Assembly: GCA_903930805.1 (NCBI GenBank)
Contig: CAIYZZ010000050.1
Span: 1 to 11,746, forward strand
Source: an uncultured Rhodocyclaceae bacterium
GTDB taxonomy: Bacteria; Pseudomonadota; Gammaproteobacteria; Burkholderiales; Rhodocyclaceae
DNA: 11,746 bases
Reading direction: 5' to 3'
The position numbers were made by a program, and so were the translations under genes. The stretch's first letter is position 1. The number at the start of each line of letters is the position of its first letter. The notes beneath the pieces are model-generated. The model searched no databases. It was given only the letters and a program-made list of their open reading frames with translations, and was not told the origin of the DNA. This document shows, one piece after another, positions 63-11,401 of the stretch.

Positions 63-250
63 GCATAAGTAACTGACGCGTAGCCAACTTATGAGGATGG
101 CCACAGGGTTACCCACAGAAATAGTGGATTACCTCAACAACATCAAACAAGCAACCGTAGCCCCCGACATTCGACCACCTTCCGTGTTAGCGATAACGTT
201 CCCATAGGGAGCGTTACCTTCGCGTACCTGATTGCCAGTGACAGTGGCTA
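41..250. repeat. direct repeat copy 1 (3' end and downstream of GNSSYG-repeat gene)
   Basis: This segment aligns without gaps to 9570-9779 at a constant offset of 9529. I counted about 30 mismatches over 210 positions (about 86% identity). It covers roughly 88 bp downstream of the gene and its last 40 codons. Similarity may continue a little to the left, since AATTAGC at 25-31 matches 9554-9560 in register. It stops sharply after 250. Confidence 0.85.
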
Positions 251-533
251 TGGTTTTGCCGTAGGAACTGTTTCCCTCATGGACTCGACCATGCTCGTCG
301 ACAGTGGCAACCACTGAACCATAGCTGGAGTTGCCTTTCCGAATCTTGTTACCGTCCATGGTGAAGATCACCGGGCCGTAGGATGAGTTTCCAAGCCTGA
401 CCTTGTCACCGGTAACAGTCATGGCGACTTTGCCGTAGGAGCTGTTGCCTTCACGAATCCGCAGCGGGGTTTCGGCAAGTGCAGGCACAGCAACAAGTAG
501 GGAGAGCAGGAAGAGCATTTGAGATGTGTTCAT
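129..533 (-). CDS. secreted five-repeat GNSSYG protein (beta-flower-like)
   Basis: 134 residues. Residues 1-20 form a Sec signal peptide with a probable cut after ALA (20), so the product is exported. The mature part is five copies of a 19-20-residue unit centred on GNSSYG at residues 29, 48, 67 and 87 and a variant GNAPYG at 106. Each is followed by a strand-like segment of the form xVIATVxGNxVR. At DNA level the units recur every 57-60 bp (202, 259, 319, 376, 433). The pattern recalls proteins that databases name '5-fold beta-flower', in which each repeat supplies one blade; I infer that from the repeat count, not a search. No catalytic residues are evident. The tail (112-134) is less repetitive and ends in a short hydrophobic run. 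The ribosome site before ATG 533 is weak. It is divergent from the disrupted gene at 793, and its 3' end is duplicated at 9658-9779. Confidence 0.75.
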   Translation of the reverse strand: MNTSQMLFLLSLLVAVPALAETPLRIREGNSSYGKVAMTVTGDKVRLGNSSYGPVIFTMDGNKIRKGNSSYGSVVATVDEHGRVHEGNSSYGKTIATVTGNQVREGNAPYGNVIANTEGGRMSGATVACLMLLR

Positions 534-760: not shown

Positions 761-832
761 TTCGAGCGAATTAGTCATTCAGGGAAATCGCCGTGGCCGC
801 CGTTTTGTCGATCGAAAAAGACCGTGTTGTTG

Positions 833-836
833 TTAA
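833..836. repeat. target-site duplication TTAA (left)
   Basis: TTAA directly abuts the left inverted repeat and is matched by TTAA at 2033-2036. Four-base YTAR-like or TTAA targets are usual for the IS5 group. Confidence 0.8.
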
Positions 837-852
837 GGAAACACTGAACAAG
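837..852 (+). repeat. IS5-family left terminal inverted repeat
   Basis: GGAAACACTGAACAAG differs at one position from the inverted copy at 2017-2032. The bases inward of it do not match the other end. Confidence 0.85.
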
Positions 853-944
853 CCACCGAGAATTTCATCGGCGGCGACGACATGAGACGAAATGACGAAA
901 CGAGAGCGAATTTCATCGCTGGAAGCCCCCTGGGAAGTTGAAAC

Positions 945-965
945 TGGGGGTGTTCCCCCATTTTT
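945..965 (+). terminator. rho-independent terminator inside the IS, facing host transcription
   Basis: TGGGGG-TGTT-CCCCCA is a perfect six-pair stem with a four-base loop, followed by five T on the plus strand. It sits just beyond the transposase stop (969). It would stop transcripts entering from the host promoter at the left, and so keep host read-through out of the antisense transposase region. Confidence 0.65.
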
Positions 966-968
966 CGC

Positions 969-1940
969 TCATGCCAGACGCACCTCTCCCGTCAGTGGTC
1001 TGCCGTGCTTGAGAATGTTGATCGCTGCCAACATGGCGAATGTGCGGTTGGCGTTGTTCGCCAGGCCGCGATAGCGTACCTTGGCGAAACCCCACAAGCG
1101 CTTGAGGATCAGGAAGGGATGTTCGATCTTCGCCCGGATGCTCGACTTGCGGCGGTTGGTCTCCTTATCGGCATCGGTCAGGGGGGCGTTGCGGTACGCT
1201 CGCTGGTTGGTGAAGTCCTTGGCGCGAGGGGCAATCATCTTCAATCGCTCCCGCTGCGCCTTGCCCCGGTAGGCACTGTCACCGTAGAACCGTGTCTCAT
1301 TGCCGTGCAGGAGATTCTCCACCTGATGGCTGTCATGCACGTTGGCCGCCGTCACACTGGCACTGTGGATCAACCCGGTCTGGCTATCAGCACCGATATG
1401 GACCTTCATGCCGAAATACCACTGGTTGCCTTTCTTGGTCTGATGCATCTCGGGATCACGGGTCTTCGCTTCGTTCTTGGTCGAGGGCGGGGCGGCAATC
1501 AGCGTGGCATCAACGATGGTGCCGCCGGATACCTTGACACCGTTGGCCTGCAACAGGGCACCGACACGGGCGAACATCGCCTGGCCAAACTCATTCTTCT
1601 CCAGCAGGTGCCGGAACTTCAGCAGGGTCGTGGCATCCGGGATCCGTTCCCGGCCCAGATCGAAGCCGCAGAACTCACGGAACACGGGTATGTCGTACAG
1701 CGCATCCTCGCAGGCTGCATCAGCCAGGTTGAACCAGTTGGCCACCCAATACATGCGCAGCATCCGCTCCAGCCCCACCGGCGGACGGCCGTTGCCAGCC
1801 TTCGGGTAGTGCGGTTCAATCAAGGCACACAACTCCGACCAAGGCATCAGTCCATCCATCTTTGTCAGAAACTCCGCCTTGCGCGTCGGCCGCGCATGCA
1901 ACTCAAAGCCCGTTCCCATCGCCAGTGTCTGTTGCTTCAT
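969..1940 (-). CDS. IS5-family DDE transposase
   Basis: 323 residues from ATG 1940, which has GGGGGA seven bases upstream; an in-frame TTG at 1955 would add five residues but lacks such a site. The protein cuts and rejoins the ends of its own element. The catalytic triad is visible as D144 (IVDATLI), D221 (YGDSAYRG) and E273 (RAKIEHPF), with the family's typical spacing and the usual Y-x-G-x-K block (residues 175-179) between the first two. The N-terminal part (about 15-130) contains the DUF772-like region GRPPVGLERMLRMYW. Length and motifs match full-length IS5-group transposases, and no frameshift is seen. It fills most of the element, opposite in strand to the gene it interrupts. Confidence 0.95.
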   Translation of the reverse strand: MKQQTLAMGTGFELHARPTRKAEFLTKMDGLMPWSELCALIEPHYPKAGNGRPPVGLERMLRMYWVANWFNLADAACEDALYDIPVFREFCGFDLGRERIPDATTLLKFRHLLEKNEFGQAMFARVGALLQANGVKVSGGTIVDATLIAAPPSTKNEAKTRDPEMHQTKKGNQWYFGMKVHIGADSQTGLIHSASVTAANVHDSHQVENLLHGNETRFYGDSAYRGKAQRERLKMIAPRAKDFTNQRAYRNAPLTDADKETNRRKSSIRAKIEHPFLILKRLWGFAKVRYRGLANNANRTFAMLAAINILKHGRPLTGEVRLA

Positions 1941-2016
1941 CTTGTCATCCCCCAATCTTGTGACCGATACCCCTCGTCAGACAACATGACATGCAAATCG
2001 TTCACGCCAGTTGGAA

Positions 2017-2032
2017 CTTATTCAGTGTTTCC
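2017..2032 (-). repeat. IS5-family right terminal inverted repeat
   Basis: On the minus strand it reads GGAAACACTGAATAAG, matching the left end at 15 of 16 bases. Through this end the downstream host fragment gains an in-frame TTG (2011), a conceivable but unsupported restart codon. Confidence 0.85.
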
Positions 2033-2036
2033 TTAA
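2033..2036. repeat. target-site duplication TTAA (right)
   Basis: Matches TTAA at 833-836. The host frame resumes here as (gt)t-aac-gta-agc. Confidence 0.8.
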
Positions 2037-2595
2037 CGTAAGCGACAGCTTGGGCTACGAAGCCTGGGAGGTATTACGTGACGCGCGCAACCAGGCCGAG
2101 ACAACACACCTGCCCTTGTGCGTTGATATCGAGCAATGCAAAATCAGAGAAGGCGGCAGAATGGCAGGAGATACGGCAAGCCCCGTGCTGTCATGCATTG
2201 AGAATGAGGCCGACACACTTGAACGTCTATTATCCAACGCGCAAATAGACTTTCACAGTGAAGTGATCTGCGATCAAACGCAATGTGAGCACAACCCGCA
2301 GTGTTTGCAGGATGTGCAGAAAACATTAGGGCGCGTGCTTAAGTTGGCGAACGATCATTTGATGGCTGAACAGAAAGCGATAAAGCCGCTGTGTGATCGT
2401 GCACGATACGAGAGTCACTGCGCTGAACACGGTGAGATGATGGGGCTAGTTCACTCCGCCATATCCATCTTTTGTCAGACGCAATGCTGCCACAGTGCCT
2501 TTCAGCAGATCCGGAAGTTTCGCACTTTATTTCAGCAGCACAGAGAGTCTGCTGACGCAATGTTTGCTGCTACGCTAGTCAATTGTCGTGACTAA

Positions 2596-5500
2596 CTATG
2601 CATCTATCTGTGAGTCTAGGATTTTCATCGCGATGCCCCACGTAGTTTCCAATGTAGAAAAATCATCGCGACGTTGGGATAAGTCATCCGTTCCCTGGAT
2701 AGATTCTGCTAGTGTCTTGTCAAGTCGGGCAGCAGCAGCTTGTAGCTCAACCAAACCTATGGTCCCGGCCCCTCCTTTCAGCGTATGAGATAGTCTCCGT
2801 GCAGTTGTAAGGTCGTCTTGCTCCAATGCGGCACCAATCTTGGCTACAGTATCGGTGTTGCGCTCGCGGAATAGACGCAGAAAACGCTTAAGAACAGCTT
2901 GGTCACCGTTAAAGTTAGCGAGAGCCATAGCGAGATCGAATCCATCCGCAATTGCAAGAGGCAATGATGGGGGAGGTCCTAGTGGAAGAGCTGACGCTAG
3001 CGAGGCGGAGTTGTCCGGCGAATGTGGGGGAGACTGACGGCTTGCTGCCAGCCATTGAACGAGCATGGCATAAAGGATATCTGGCAGGATTGGCTTGGTC
3101 AGGATGTCATTCATGCCGGCAGCCTGTACGCGTTCCCGTTCCTCGGCCATGGCATGGGCGGTCAGGGCGAGTACCGGCAAGTTTGGCAGGCGCTCTCGAA
3201 TATGACGGGCAGCAATGTAGCCGTCCATCACCGGCATCTGCAGATCCATCAGCACCAGATCGTAACTGCCCACCTCAACAGCTGCCACTGCCTGTTCGCC
3301 ATCGTTGGCAGTCTCAACGGTGGCGCCGGTGATCGCGATCAGCTCGCGGCCGACCTCGCGGTTGAAATCATTGTCATCTACCAGAAGAATGCGTGCGCTC
3401 TTCAAGTCTGGCACGGTTGTTTGTGCGATAGCAAGCGGAGGGAGGCTGGCATGCCCACCCAATACGCTGATCATGGCGTCGTGCAGAGAGGAGCGCGAAA
3501 TAGGCTTGGTGAGAAATGCCTGAAAGTCACCTTCGCAAGCCTGGGTCCGCGCCACCTCCGGTTCGTCGCCGGTAATCAGGATGATGGGTACGCCATTACC
3601 GCTTGTGCGAATTTGGCGGGCGGTAACCAAGCCATCCAAATCAGCCATGTGCCAGTCGAGCAGGATGAGATCGAAATGCGTCCCCAATCGAAGCCTCTTT
3701 ATAACCTCTTGGCCGGAGTCAACCGCTTCTACCCAGCATCCGAAAGCTTCCATGCCTCGGCTTAACAAAGTGCGCATGACAGCATTGTCATCCGCTACCA
3801 ATATCTGCTTGCCGACGAGAAGCGAACGTGCCGTCGTTTGTGCAGGCTCGACTGCGCCTATGCCGAAGTGTGCGGTGAAGCTGAAAGTAGAACCAACTCC
3901 GAATTCGCTCTCGACGCCGATCATGCCACCCATGTGTTCCACCAGTTGTTTGCTGATGGCCAACCCAAGCCCCGTCCCGCCAAATCTTCGCGTCGTAGAT
4001 CCGTCAGCCTGAGTAAAGGCAGTGAATAACTTAGCCTGCTGCTCAGGGTGCATACCTAGGCCGGTGTCGCGCACCGCAAAACGAAGTGTTATGGAGGTGG
4101 TGTCCGCATCGTCGGCAACGATCGTCACTGGTTCTACGGTCAGACTGATTTCGCCGTGCTCGGTAAATTTCAGGGCATTGCCCGTTAAGTTGATGAGAAC
4201 CTGGCCCAGCCGCAAGGGGTCGCCCAGTAAGTGGTCTGGTATGCCAGGCAGGGCGCCGATGACCAACTCCACACCCTTTTCACGTGCCTTGAGGTTGAAC
4301 AGGTTGGCGATGCGGTGCAGTACCTCGCCCAGACTGAATGAAACGGATTCCACCTCCAGCTTGCCGGCTTCTATCTTGGAGAAGTCGAGCACGTCGTTGA
4401 TGATGCCCAGCAAGGATTGGCCTGCACTGTGAGTTTTTTCGACGTAGCCGCGCGCGCGCGTGGGCAGATCATCAAGTGTCAGGCAGAGGTGAGAAAACCC
4501 CAGCATGGCGTTGATTGGAGTGCGGATTTCATGGCTCATGTTGGCCAGGAATTCCCCCTTGGCCTTCGCGGCTTCCTGTGCGGTGATGAGCGCGAGTTCC
4601 AGTTCCTGCTGTGCCACTTTTTGCGTGGTGATGTCACGGATCACGCCGATGAAGGTACTGCCTGAATCATCAACTATCTCGTTGACGGAAAGGTCAATAG
4701 AAAAATGACGGCCGTCCTTGTGCCGGCCTTCAAACTCACGCCGCCTGCCAACAAGGGAGGTCTGCCGAGTTGTCTGGTACCGCTGCATATAGCCATCATG
4801 GGCGCTGCGGTGAGGCTCAGGCATCAGCAAGCTGACATTCTGGCCGATCAACTCTTCCTCCTCGTAACCAAACAGATCCTCGATAACGGCATTGACTGAA
4901 AGCACGGAGCCATGGGCGTCGATAGTCACTACACCATCGCGCAGGGTGCGCAAAATGGCGCGGCTACGTGCCTCACTTGCTTTCAGTTTGATTTCTTCCA
5001 GTTCGACAAGGCGTCGCGAATTTGCGATGGATTTCGATGCATGATTCAGCGCCTGATTCAAAGCTTCCAGTTCGACGGTGGGATAGTTCATCTCCAGTAT
5101 TTCGTCGCTGGGGACATCAATATGCCTTGAATAATCAGTCGCTCGGCTCAGTTGGCGCATTGGACGCCGCAGATAAAACAGGATTACCGCTGCACTGAAT
5201 AACGAAGTGAACAGTCCTGTTGTTAAGTTGTCCAGCCAAATGTTCTCCCTCGCCTTGCGCACGGGCTCCAGGCTGTATTCGACGCGTACCCAGCCAATCA
5301 CATTGCCCGCTCGAATCGGTTGCCAGATCAGCAGTGACGATCCTTCGATAATGGGATCAACAATTAATGAATCGGTTTGTGGAGGCAGGTAGACCTTGCC
5401 GAAACGCACTTCCCCTTCCTTGTCGGGAGCTGCCACGACATCCGCCAAGGCTTGTCCGTTCGGTTTGATGATCTGGAGCGAGAGAATGCCGGGAAACTTG

Positions 5501-5745
5501 ACCGCTTGCCTTACCAACTGCTCGAGGCTGTCGAGTTCTCCTTGAACAATGCTGGAAGAAGCACTCACGGCAATGTTGCCGGCTAGTGCCAGCGGCTGGG
5601 CCCTTAGCTGATGTTCAAGAAAGTCAGCCTGCTCGTTGGCAGTATGGACCGTATAGCCAATTTGCGAGATGAGCAGCGCACCGACGACAAGCAGTGTCAA
5701 CTGTATGGAGAAGCGGCGCGGCAAGAAGCGTTTCAACGGGCCCAT
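2596..5745 (-). CDS. membrane hybrid histidine kinase (PAS-HisKA-HATPase-REC-REC-Hpt)
   Basis: 1049 residues counted from ATG 5745, chosen because AGGA lies nine bases upstream; TTG 5754, overlapping the previous stop, would add three residues. Order: TM1 about 11-33; periplasmic domain about 34-172; TM2 about 173-193; PAS about 263-375; HisKA with phosphoacceptor H405 (NMSHEIRTP); HATPase with N-box NLTGNALKF (about 520), DTGLGM (about 560) and GGTGLGLAI (about 589); receiver 1 with D697; receiver 2 with D834 ([11 protein letters not shown]); Hpt with H987 ([10 protein letters not shown]). All phosphorelay residues are present. It probably senses the state of the PhnD-type protein encoded just upstream and relays phosphate to the separate receiver protein at 6659-7555. 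Third gene of the operon. Its TAG stop directly abuts the TAA of the convergent broken gene, leaving no intergenic terminator. Confidence 0.95.
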
Positions 5746-5750
5746 CCGCT

Positions 5751-6614
5751 TCAATCCTGCTCGATGACGATATACCTCTCCAGCTTGAGCCGCTCCAGCG
5801 GTTGGTAGTCGCGCGCGTAGTCAGCCACGATCGGCTCGGCCATCTGCACTGCCTGGAGGAGTGGTGCCGCCGTTGCGTCCTCGCGCAGCTTGAGAATGGC
5901 CGTCATTACAGCCTTGCGTTGTGTCGCGGAAACGCGTGGATGGGCAGACAGAGGATGCGGTGCCACACCCGGCGTTTCGAACAGCACGCGCAGTTGCGCT
6001 CGCACGGCATCCGGCTCACGCTGAAAACTGGTGTTGACCGTGCCACCTGCAACCGCCTCGCCCTGGATGACGTGGCGAACGACATTGGTATGGGTCTTGA
6101 GGTAGGCAGGCTCGATCTTTACGTTCTCCTGTTCGGCAAGCAAGGCACGCATGTAGAGAGATGCACCGAAGGCATTCGGAGAAGGAAATGCGAGCTTGCT
6201 ACCGGCCAAATCTTTGGTCGTTTTGACCGGGCTGTCCTGACGCACCAGCAAAATGCCGGTAAGTTGCCGGGTATCGCGCACCAGCGGAAGATAGCCGGCG
6301 GCGCGCTTCGCCATGACTTCGTGATAAGGATTCATGAAAGCAAGGTCGGGAACACCCTTGAGTACATCCGCCTCGAAATCAGGGATGCGTTGATATACCT
6401 TGAGCGTCAGTGGAACGCCACTATCGCGCGCGACCCGTTCCAGAAACGGCGTCCAGTCCTTGTGAATCTGCAACGGCGTGAACTGTGGCACCACGGCAAC
6501 GACCAGAGGACGCAAGTCGCTGGTAGGTGGGGAGGGTAATGTCTGGGCATTGGCGGCAATAGCCAACAATGAGAGTGCCAGCCATGACAACCGAAAAAAA
6601 CGTGAAAGCATCAC
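5751..6614 (-). CDS. PhnD/SsuA-type periplasmic substrate-binding protein
   Basis: 287 residues with a signal peptide cut near ANA-QT (23), so periplasmic and soluble. The mature protein has the PhnD-like fold signature: an opening strand [19 protein letters not shown] (37-54), [11 protein letters not shown] (90-100), [20 protein letters not shown] (135-154) and the hinge-side segment [10 protein letters not shown] (189-198). No ABC permease or ATPase gene is nearby; it lies between a receiver gene and a hybrid kinase. That argues for a sensory rather than transport role, as for AioX with AioS. The ligand cannot be read from sequence. GTG 6614 has AGGA nine bases upstream, and ATG 6611 follows immediately; either may be used. 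The gene starts 44 bp after the receiver gene, and its TGA is five bases before the kinase ATG, indicating co-transcription. Confidence 0.9.
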
Positions 6615-6658
6615 GATAAATATTCCTTCAGAACAATCTCATGGTATTCGGGATTTAC

Positions 6659-7555
6659 TCACAACGTGTCAGCCGGGGTTGCCGTCACCACCACCACGTT
6701 ACCGCAACCCTGATACTCGATGCTGGGGAATGCCAGCTGACGCGCCATGGCGATACCTCGACCATGGGGGTCGAAGGCGCGAGCGGGATCCATTTCAAGG
6801 TAATTCTTCCAATCAAAGCCTTGGCCCTGATCGCGGATAGTTATGCGTAGACAGTCGGGTTCGCGTCGGTATTCCAGTTCCGCCCAACGACTTCCTAGTT
6901 CGGGATCGCCGAGACGGCTTTCGATTTCTTTGGCGAGGAGTTCCTTCTGTATTAGTTGAGTCTTTTCTGCATAGGTAATGCCGAGGTTACCGTGCTCCAC
7001 CGCATTGAGCATCAATTCTGTCAGACCCAAGGCCATCATGCTTTCATTAGTACCGAGATGCGCGATGACGCTGGCCAGGCGGCGGGCCGCATCATGAGTG
7101 CGAAACCGATACGTGGCCGATGTCGTCATGGACAGCACGGCCTGCAGTTCCTCGCTCAGTCGGACCAGATCGCCCTGGCTAAGCCTGTCGGCCAGTGCGG
7201 CTGCGACGATTTGCCTTAGAGCATCGCCGCGATATGGCTTGGATAGGTAATACCAGGCTCCAGCAGCCAACCCCTCAGCGACCTCGTCGGGGGTGTTCGC
7301 AGCAGTCTGCATGATGATCGGCAGATGCTTGAGGAGCGGATCTGCCTTGCAGAGTCGCAGTACTTCCATGCCATCCATGATTGGCATGAGGCGGTCAAGA
7401 ATTACCGCATCGAAGCGATCGGGCGCATCGGTAAGTTGTCGCCAAGCCTCCTGGCCATCCTCGGCATATACTAAACTGTGGTGCTGGTCCTTAAGATGCT
7501 CGGCAATCAAATCCAGATTGAATGTATCGTCATCGACTACTAACAGGCAAGACAC
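6659..7555 (-). CDS. response regulator with RsbW-type ATP-binding output domain
   Basis: 298 residues from GTG 7555 (AGAGGG ribosome site seven bases upstream). Residues 1-120 are a receiver: acidic D8-D10, phosphoacceptor D54 (VILDRLMPIMDG), T84 and K106 (SKPY). Residues about 150-295 are a HATPase_c_2/RsbW-like domain: N-box ELMLNAVEHGN with N184 (180-190), DQGQGF (242-247), and HGRGIAMARQL (264-274). There is no PP2C phosphatase domain and no DNA-binding domain. RsbW-type proteins bind and phosphorylate STAS proteins or hold sigma factors, so the likely output of this phosphorelay is protein partner switching. First gene of the operon, so its level may set the stoichiometry. The candidate STAS-like partner is the IS-disrupted gene at the other end of the cluster. 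Confidence 0.93.
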   Translation of the reverse strand: MSCLLVVDDDTFNLDLIAEHLKDQHHSLVYAEDGQEAWRQLTDAPDRFDAVILDRLMPIMDGMEVLRLCKADPLLKHLPIIMQTAANTPDEVAEGLAAGAWYYLSKPYRGDALRQIVAAALADRLSQGDLVRLSEELQAVLSMTTSATYRFRTHDAARRLASVIAHLGTNESMMALGLTELMLNAVEHGNLGITYAEKTQLIQKELLAKEIESRLGDPELGSRWAELEYRREPDCLRITIRDQGQGFDWKNYLEMDPARAFDPHGRGIAMARQLAFPSIEYQGCGNVVVVTATPADTL

Positions 7556-10969: not shown

Positions 10970-11401
10970 TCAATTGTCCTTGGGTGCAGCCACAGGATCG
11001 ACCCCTTTACTCAGGAAATACGCGACTAATTCACGATCATGCTTATCGATGTGATCGATTAGCCACAACTGTATGAAGTTCGAAAGCCCGTCCGAAATGT
11101 CGTGGTCTTGTGCGCGTTGACTGAATATCTTAAGTTGATCAGTCAGATGGCGATGTTCCGACACATGGGCGTCGGTCTCGGAAAAGGAGAGAAGACGCAT
11201 CAAGCTCTCTTCCACCGCGAAATGAATCCGAGTTTCTAAGTCTAGTTCCGCCAAGATTGCATTCACCGCGTAGCCGAAGTGCTTATCGGTTACGTTCCTC
11301 AGGCGTTCAAGCAGAGAATAAAGTCGCTTGTGTTGTAAGTCGATTTCGGCAATACCGATCTCGAATTCAATGGGTAGTAAGGAGGGATGATGAGATGTCA
11401 T
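10970..11401 (-). CDS. bacteriohemerythrin
   Basis: 143 residues, the usual length of a stand-alone bacterial hemerythrin. A four-helix bundle holds a di-iron site that binds O2 (or NO). All seven ligands are present: H24 (EIDLQHKRL), H60 and E64 (HFAVEES), H79 and H83 (HVSEHRH), H117 and D122 (HIDKHD). There is no signal peptide or partner domain, so it is cytoplasmic. A role in oxygen storage, delivery or sensing is the family expectation; nothing here decides between them. ATG 11401 lacks a strong ribosome site, but a TATAAT hexamer lies upstream. It is transcribed toward the DsrE-family gene on the same strand, 215 bp away. Its ligand spacing supports reading the broken gene at 793-2595 as a second hemerythrin. 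Confidence 0.93.
   Translation of the reverse strand: MTSHHPSLLPIEFEIGIAEIDLQHKRLYSLLERLRNVTDKHFGYAVNAILAELDLETRIHFAVEESLMRLLSFSETDAHVSEHRHLTDQLKIFSQRAQDHDISDGLSNFIQLWLIDHIDKHDRELVAYFLSKGVDPVAAPKDN

Follow-up and report, generated by a model that had tools for sequence, protein, structure and literature searches.

The window analysed here is a stretch of 11,746 nucleotides from an uncultured Rhodocyclaceae bacterium (contig CAIYZZ010000050.1 of assembly GCA_903930805.1), and the subject of this report is a reading frame at positions 793 to 2595 that is interrupted by an insertion sequence (IS) of the IS5 family. The locus most probably consists of the truncated 5′ end of a gene of a STAS-only family, lying directly ahead of a separate hemerythrin-like gene and later hit by the insertion sequence. 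Both halves of the joined frame are real, and the frame was joined before the insertion. An earlier note on this DNA had read the frame as a STAS-hemerythrin fusion coupling di-iron or redox sensing directly to partner switching; the joined protein appears to be an isolated product of gene loss rather than a new type of sensor. The features of the locus are listed below in window positions (aa, amino acids; E, expectation value).

793-836, plus strand: first codons, with a GTG start, of the STAS-like gene remnant; 12 of 14 residues identical to database protein P0036, aligned to the first methionine of relatives L210 and L211
837-2032, no strand assigned: IS5-family insertion sequence of 1196 bases, with inverted ends, TTAA flanks and a transposase
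969-1955, minus strand: IS5-family DDE transposase, 328 aa (NF033581, 339.9 bits, E 1.1e-101; PF01609, 113.3 bits)
2033-2036, no strand assigned: right target copy TTAA, read from the sequence
2037-2139, plus strand: rest of the STAS remnant, ending at Cys49 in the joined frame, by identity to P0036 and by profiles A5 and A6
2140-2160, plus strand: 21-base join from the STAS remnant to the hemerythrin-like gene, with an AGAAGG stretch resembling a ribosome site (role judged by eye)
2161-2595, plus strand: hemerythrin-like gene, 144 aa from ATG 2161, by alignment with relative L149, the start of database protein P0001, a predicted helical bundle and family scores below cut-off
2269-2304, plus strand: cysteine loop C-x4-C-x5-C between helices A and B, by sequence comparison

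An insertion sequence within an open reading frame

The earlier claim of an IS5-family insertion at 837-2032 within the frame is borne out by the match of the transposase to NF033581, by the ends of the element, where 15 of the first 16 bases match as inverted repeats, and by TTAA target copies at 833-836 and 2033-2036 that directly flank it. The element has the IS5-type DDE transposase, inverted ends and short target duplication that IS5-family insertion sequences share, and nothing in it is unusual. Because target copies stand on both sides, a true insertion is favoured over a chimeric contig. Only one full copy is present in the assembly; besides it there are a relative at 77% on contig 128 and, at contig ends, two 140-base matches with 73% identity.

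When the flanks were joined by script, with the element set aside before the frame was read, a frame ran open for 200 codons from GTG 793 to the stop at 2595, and it reproduced the 12 cysteines and the residues H88, H122, E126, H142, H146, H183 and D188 listed earlier. The junction is spanned by an intact relative. P0036, a metagenome protein of 111 aa, starts with V like the remnant and continues across the insertion point, which falls at codons 14-15; it is identical to the joined frame at 12 of 14 residues before the junction and 26 of 35 after it (38/49 in total), and at 1 of 17 past a break after residue 49. STAS homology therefore ends mid-domain, at residue 49 (base 2139), and the window retains 49 of the approximately 100 residues of a complete STAS fold, in line with the earlier caveat that the STAS-like part was about half a domain.

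The STAS-like start could be read as a chance open frame, or as a 5′ untranslated region ahead of the hemerythrin-like gene, and two results lean that way. A general STAS profile built from 30 same-genus proteins gave joined residues 1-60 a score of 3.5 bits and the whole joined frame 1.1 bits, the former equalled by 19 of 2000 shuffles and by three other segments of this sequence, and a search with PF13466 at E 1 did not list the STAS locus of the window. Against this stand profiles built without the window. The test profile, whose 30 rows come from 29 database proteins because one is entered twice, scored joined residues 1-60 at 65.2 bits, residues 15-60 alone at 47.9 bits and the first 14 alone at 5.8 bits, with a maximum of 9.7 bits on 5000 shuffles (4668 of which were scored), and profiles A5 and A6 matched 2037-2139 at E 2.7e-9 and 4.2e-12. 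These profiles, and P0036 with its identity across the junction, rule out a chance frame and leave that explanation with almost no probability. The STAS label of the remnant is secure only because a new STAS family was found, the general same-genus profile being too weak to carry it.

The STAS-only family behind the remnant

A search of 249 genomes of the same family, with the 46 residues that follow the element (2035-2172) as query, matched 35 at E 0.5, comprising the window, two clear relatives and 32 others at E 0.07 or worse. The clear relatives, L210 (1450-1782, plus strand; E 5.6e-7) and L211 (1342-1665, minus strand; E 1.9e-5), are frames of 110-117 residues whose first methionines align with GTG 793 and which score 21.0 and 16.0 bits against STAS_2 (cut-off 29.2). 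The weaker frames L216 and L219 matched no Pfam family and were set aside, and L229 and L230, from two of the eight genomes in a profile search, carry ordinary STAS proteins. L210 and L211 join 29 database proteins (P0012-P0040), 77-145 aa long in a protein search limited to approximately 61-194 aa, in a STAS-only family whose members have a DMGG loop and share conserved cysteines close to the C-terminus. PF13466 (STAS_2) is precomputed for 16 of the 29, and 24 of 27 members match it with E values of 0.1 or lower, down to 3.4e-6, which places the relationship at the level of the family.

Modelled with 26 relatives, P0036 takes a SpoIIAA-like fold in which strands and helices follow the same order, and SpoIIAA and RsbV chains are the top fold matches; the STAS label is therefore correct. 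Sequence comparison reaches less far: the family profile finds RsbV at E 0.94, ranked below unrelated lyases, no solved structure falls below E 0.49, and among NCBIfam models no STAS model is matched, with 13 of 27 members weakly matching an unrelated hydrolase (best E 0.006). The family also differs from SpoIIAA and RsbV in that the DSS of the phospho-serine loop is DMG, within DMGG, in 29 of 29 relatives, whereas all 30 same-genus STAS proteins (35 loci less five without a usable frame) have serine or threonine at that column, and in its conserved C-terminal cysteines. The remnant in the window, for its part, retains the first half of the domain only, and the loop region is absent from it. 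In anti-sigma antagonists the loop serine acts through its phosphorylation, according to the available part of PMC8256260, and its loss from the family argues against classical partner switching. A further arrangement was seen in L227 (1471-2190, minus strand, 240 aa) and L228 (1468-2223, minus strand, 252 aa), in which a PilZ-like domain (PF07238, 24.8 and 17.1 bits, cut-off 22.5) is joined to a cysteine STAS relative.

The hemerythrin-like gene

The second half of the joined frame has relatives and a plausible start codon of its own. Its closest relative, L149, is 40% identical over 114 aa and has its first in-frame methionine at the position of ATG 2161, where P0001 also begins. Scores against PF01814 (16.3 bits, cut-off 25.3) and TIGR02481 (19.1 bits, cut-off 51.75) lie below both thresholds, and L149 itself lies just under the former (23.9 bits). 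An alignment of 27 rows, in which 25 relatives were combined with the window piece and with the window's ordinary bacteriohemerythrin (10970-11401, minus strand; PF01814, 41.4 bits), yielded an AlphaFold2 (AF2) model with a four-helix bundle, and its profile matches DcrH-Hr at E 1.4e-6; at E 0.1, TIGR02481 matches 22 of the rows and PF01814 matches 16. A Foldseek comparison of the model with the PDB returned no match at E 0.001 or better, and a second comparison ranks DcrH-Hr among unrelated bundles. Profile searches and structure prediction, the checks proposed for the fusion, thus upheld a four-helix bundle and, through the new family, a STAS relationship, while the hemerythrin scores stayed under their cut-offs.

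The domain labels fared similarly: the STAS-related start and the hemerythrin-like bundle stood, and the ligand assigned to H88 did not. The hemerythrin signature is H-HxxxE-HxxxH-HxxxxD according to the available part of PMC9388753, and in the alignment the helix-A histidine of L149 is replaced by alanine in the window, with the other six of seven ligands kept. H88 is ruled out as an iron ligand by its position 15 residues past that of the helix-A ligand; it is common to L149 and sits at the end of helix A in the model. The hemerythrin-like protein is set apart from bacteriohemerythrins and DcrH-Hr by its helix-A alanine, by scores under the Pfam and NCBIfam cut-offs, and by the cysteine loop between helices A and B. 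Many relatives have a cysteine loop at this place; L149, L150, L163 and L011 (in its first half) share the spacing, and other relatives differ in it or have fewer cysteines.

Two relatives from the same genus, L011 (988-1920, minus strand, 311 aa) and L012 (991-1929, minus strand, 313 aa), have two hemerythrin-like halves, both with cysteine loops, and converge on the end of a hybrid-kinase-like gene. A set of short relatives (P0002, P0005-P0009 and L010 at 1402-2016, minus strand) keep their cysteines with several canonical iron ligands gone, most showing Q or nothing in place of E, and S, T or N in place of H (P0006 retains that H). Because these ligands are absent, the short proteins are perhaps metal-free.

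Neighbouring genes

Three genes downstream, on the opposite strand, correspond to the operon that the earlier note placed at 2596-7555.

2596-5754, minus strand: hybrid histidine kinase (PAS, HisKA, HATPase_c, two receiver domains and Hpt, by domain matches), a convergent neighbour
5751-6614, minus strand: phosphonate-binding-type periplasmic protein (PF12974, 159.9 bits)
6659-7555, minus strand: receiver plus HATPase_c_2 protein, an RsbW-like ATPase (PF00072, 78.0 bits; PF13581, 39.1 bits)

These neighbours are real, but the uninterrupted orthologue expected beside homologues of them did not appear at L038, the locus of the closest receiver-ATPase relative (56%), which has no STAS-family or hemerythrin-like frame within 15 kilobases (kb). 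A receiver search in the window's genome gave 74 matches, too broad for synteny, and the 12 best besides the window gene were compared. A kinase or receiver frame flanks 9 of 25 hemerythrin relatives; among 8 plain hemerythrin loci in the genome of the window the count is 2, where the frame in question is the hemerythrin's own long one. With so few loci, no link between hemerythrin relatives and two-component genes is claimed. At the other end of the window, a secreted-looking protein with GNSSYG repeats (129-533, minus strand) matches a 6-fold beta flower (PF21786, 73.5 bits).

Weighing the explanations

That the joined frame was a working fusion, tying redox or di-iron sensing to partner switching until the insertion sequence inactivated it, is improbable. 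In its favour, both halves have real relatives, the frame is continuous without the element, and the gene for an RsbW-like ATPase lies at a distance of 4 kb. RsbR contains a STAS domain. A precedent in idea for joining an oxygen-binding domain to STAS is offered by the haem-RsbR stressosome proteins, which use haem where the window has a hemerythrin, as described in the available part of PMC4976288. These points are set against a STAS domain cut in half, a family with DMGG for the canonical DSS, STAS relatives too short for both parts, a missing helix-A ligand and a plausible separate start of the hemerythrin-like gene at ATG 2161. The orthologue search also went against it: the intact relative across the junction, P0036, is STAS-only, the window's own frame, which recurs in each set, was the only one of 1,459 frames in 50 loci (four search sets) to match both families, and a protein search covering approximately 102-325 aa, wide enough to catch a 200-aa fusion that the narrower family search would have missed, found nothing beyond the protein of the window itself. 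Literature searches brought up no paper on a STAS-hemerythrin fusion, and the available part of a review of hemerythrin sensors (PMC9388753) makes no mention of STAS. The proposed coupling of sensing to partner switching is accordingly not upheld.

Another reading, somewhat less improbable but still unlikely, takes STAS-type and hemerythrin-type genes as former neighbours and functional partners, of which the window holds a pair after deletion. The in-frame joining of two cysteine-rich proteins would suit it, as would genus groups g7 and g18, which each hold one type, in different genomes, and genome G186, which has the cysteine-loop hemerythrin L154 and the PilZ-joined STAS relative L228 approximately 1 Mb apart; yet in seven regions of 6.6 to 19 kb fetched around members of one family or the other, the two never occur together. 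A further reading, in which a serine-less, cysteine-tailed STAS protein and a cysteine-loop hemerythrin make up a two-part thiol/iron redox switch, fused in the window and only just broken by the insertion sequence, deserves little credence.

The probable explanation, a truncated STAS-only gene ahead of a separate hemerythrin-like gene, faces several points of its own. A codon test gave the upstream 56 codons +5.3 bits and the hemerythrin part −10.3 bits. For the upstream codons, a value this low is seen in 11% of true coding windows and one this high in 24% of wrong-frame windows without a stop, and one reverse frame slightly exceeds it; the test thus does not mark the upstream part as non-coding, which fits either recent loss or a kept function of the remnant. 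An open frame across the break might be expected by chance in perhaps one case in four. The ribosome site was judged by eye, the start of L149 is taken as its first in-frame ATG, and P0036 by itself has no Pfam match at E 0.1, PF13466 included. The two genes are never side by side in the seven regions or at L038, so their former neighbourhood is a guess, and the assembly is a draft of 558 contigs with 5.69% contamination.

On this same explanation, the last approximately 60 STAS codons would have been lost in a deletion that kept the two frames in phase, and a short-lived 200-aa chimera may then have been translated before the insertion sequence arrived. The IS5 element would then have landed at codons 14-15 of a remnant no longer needed. 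Today the 144-aa hemerythrin-like protein would be made alone from ATG 2161, probably serving in the cytoplasm as a small redox protein based on iron or thiols. Its di-iron site is predicted to be incomplete because the helix-A histidine is alanine, and its cysteine loop may carry the chemistry.

Implications

The case of P0036 demonstrates that an intact relative can prove an in-frame reading across an insertion sequence, and also that such a reading may still give the wrong idea of function. The locus itself, a single truncated join, is of modest interest. More interesting are the two little-described cysteine-rich groups to which it drew attention: a STAS-only group in which every protein seen has lost the phospho-serine, and a hemerythrin-like group that has a cysteine loop. 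Either could represent a redox variant of a well-known switch.
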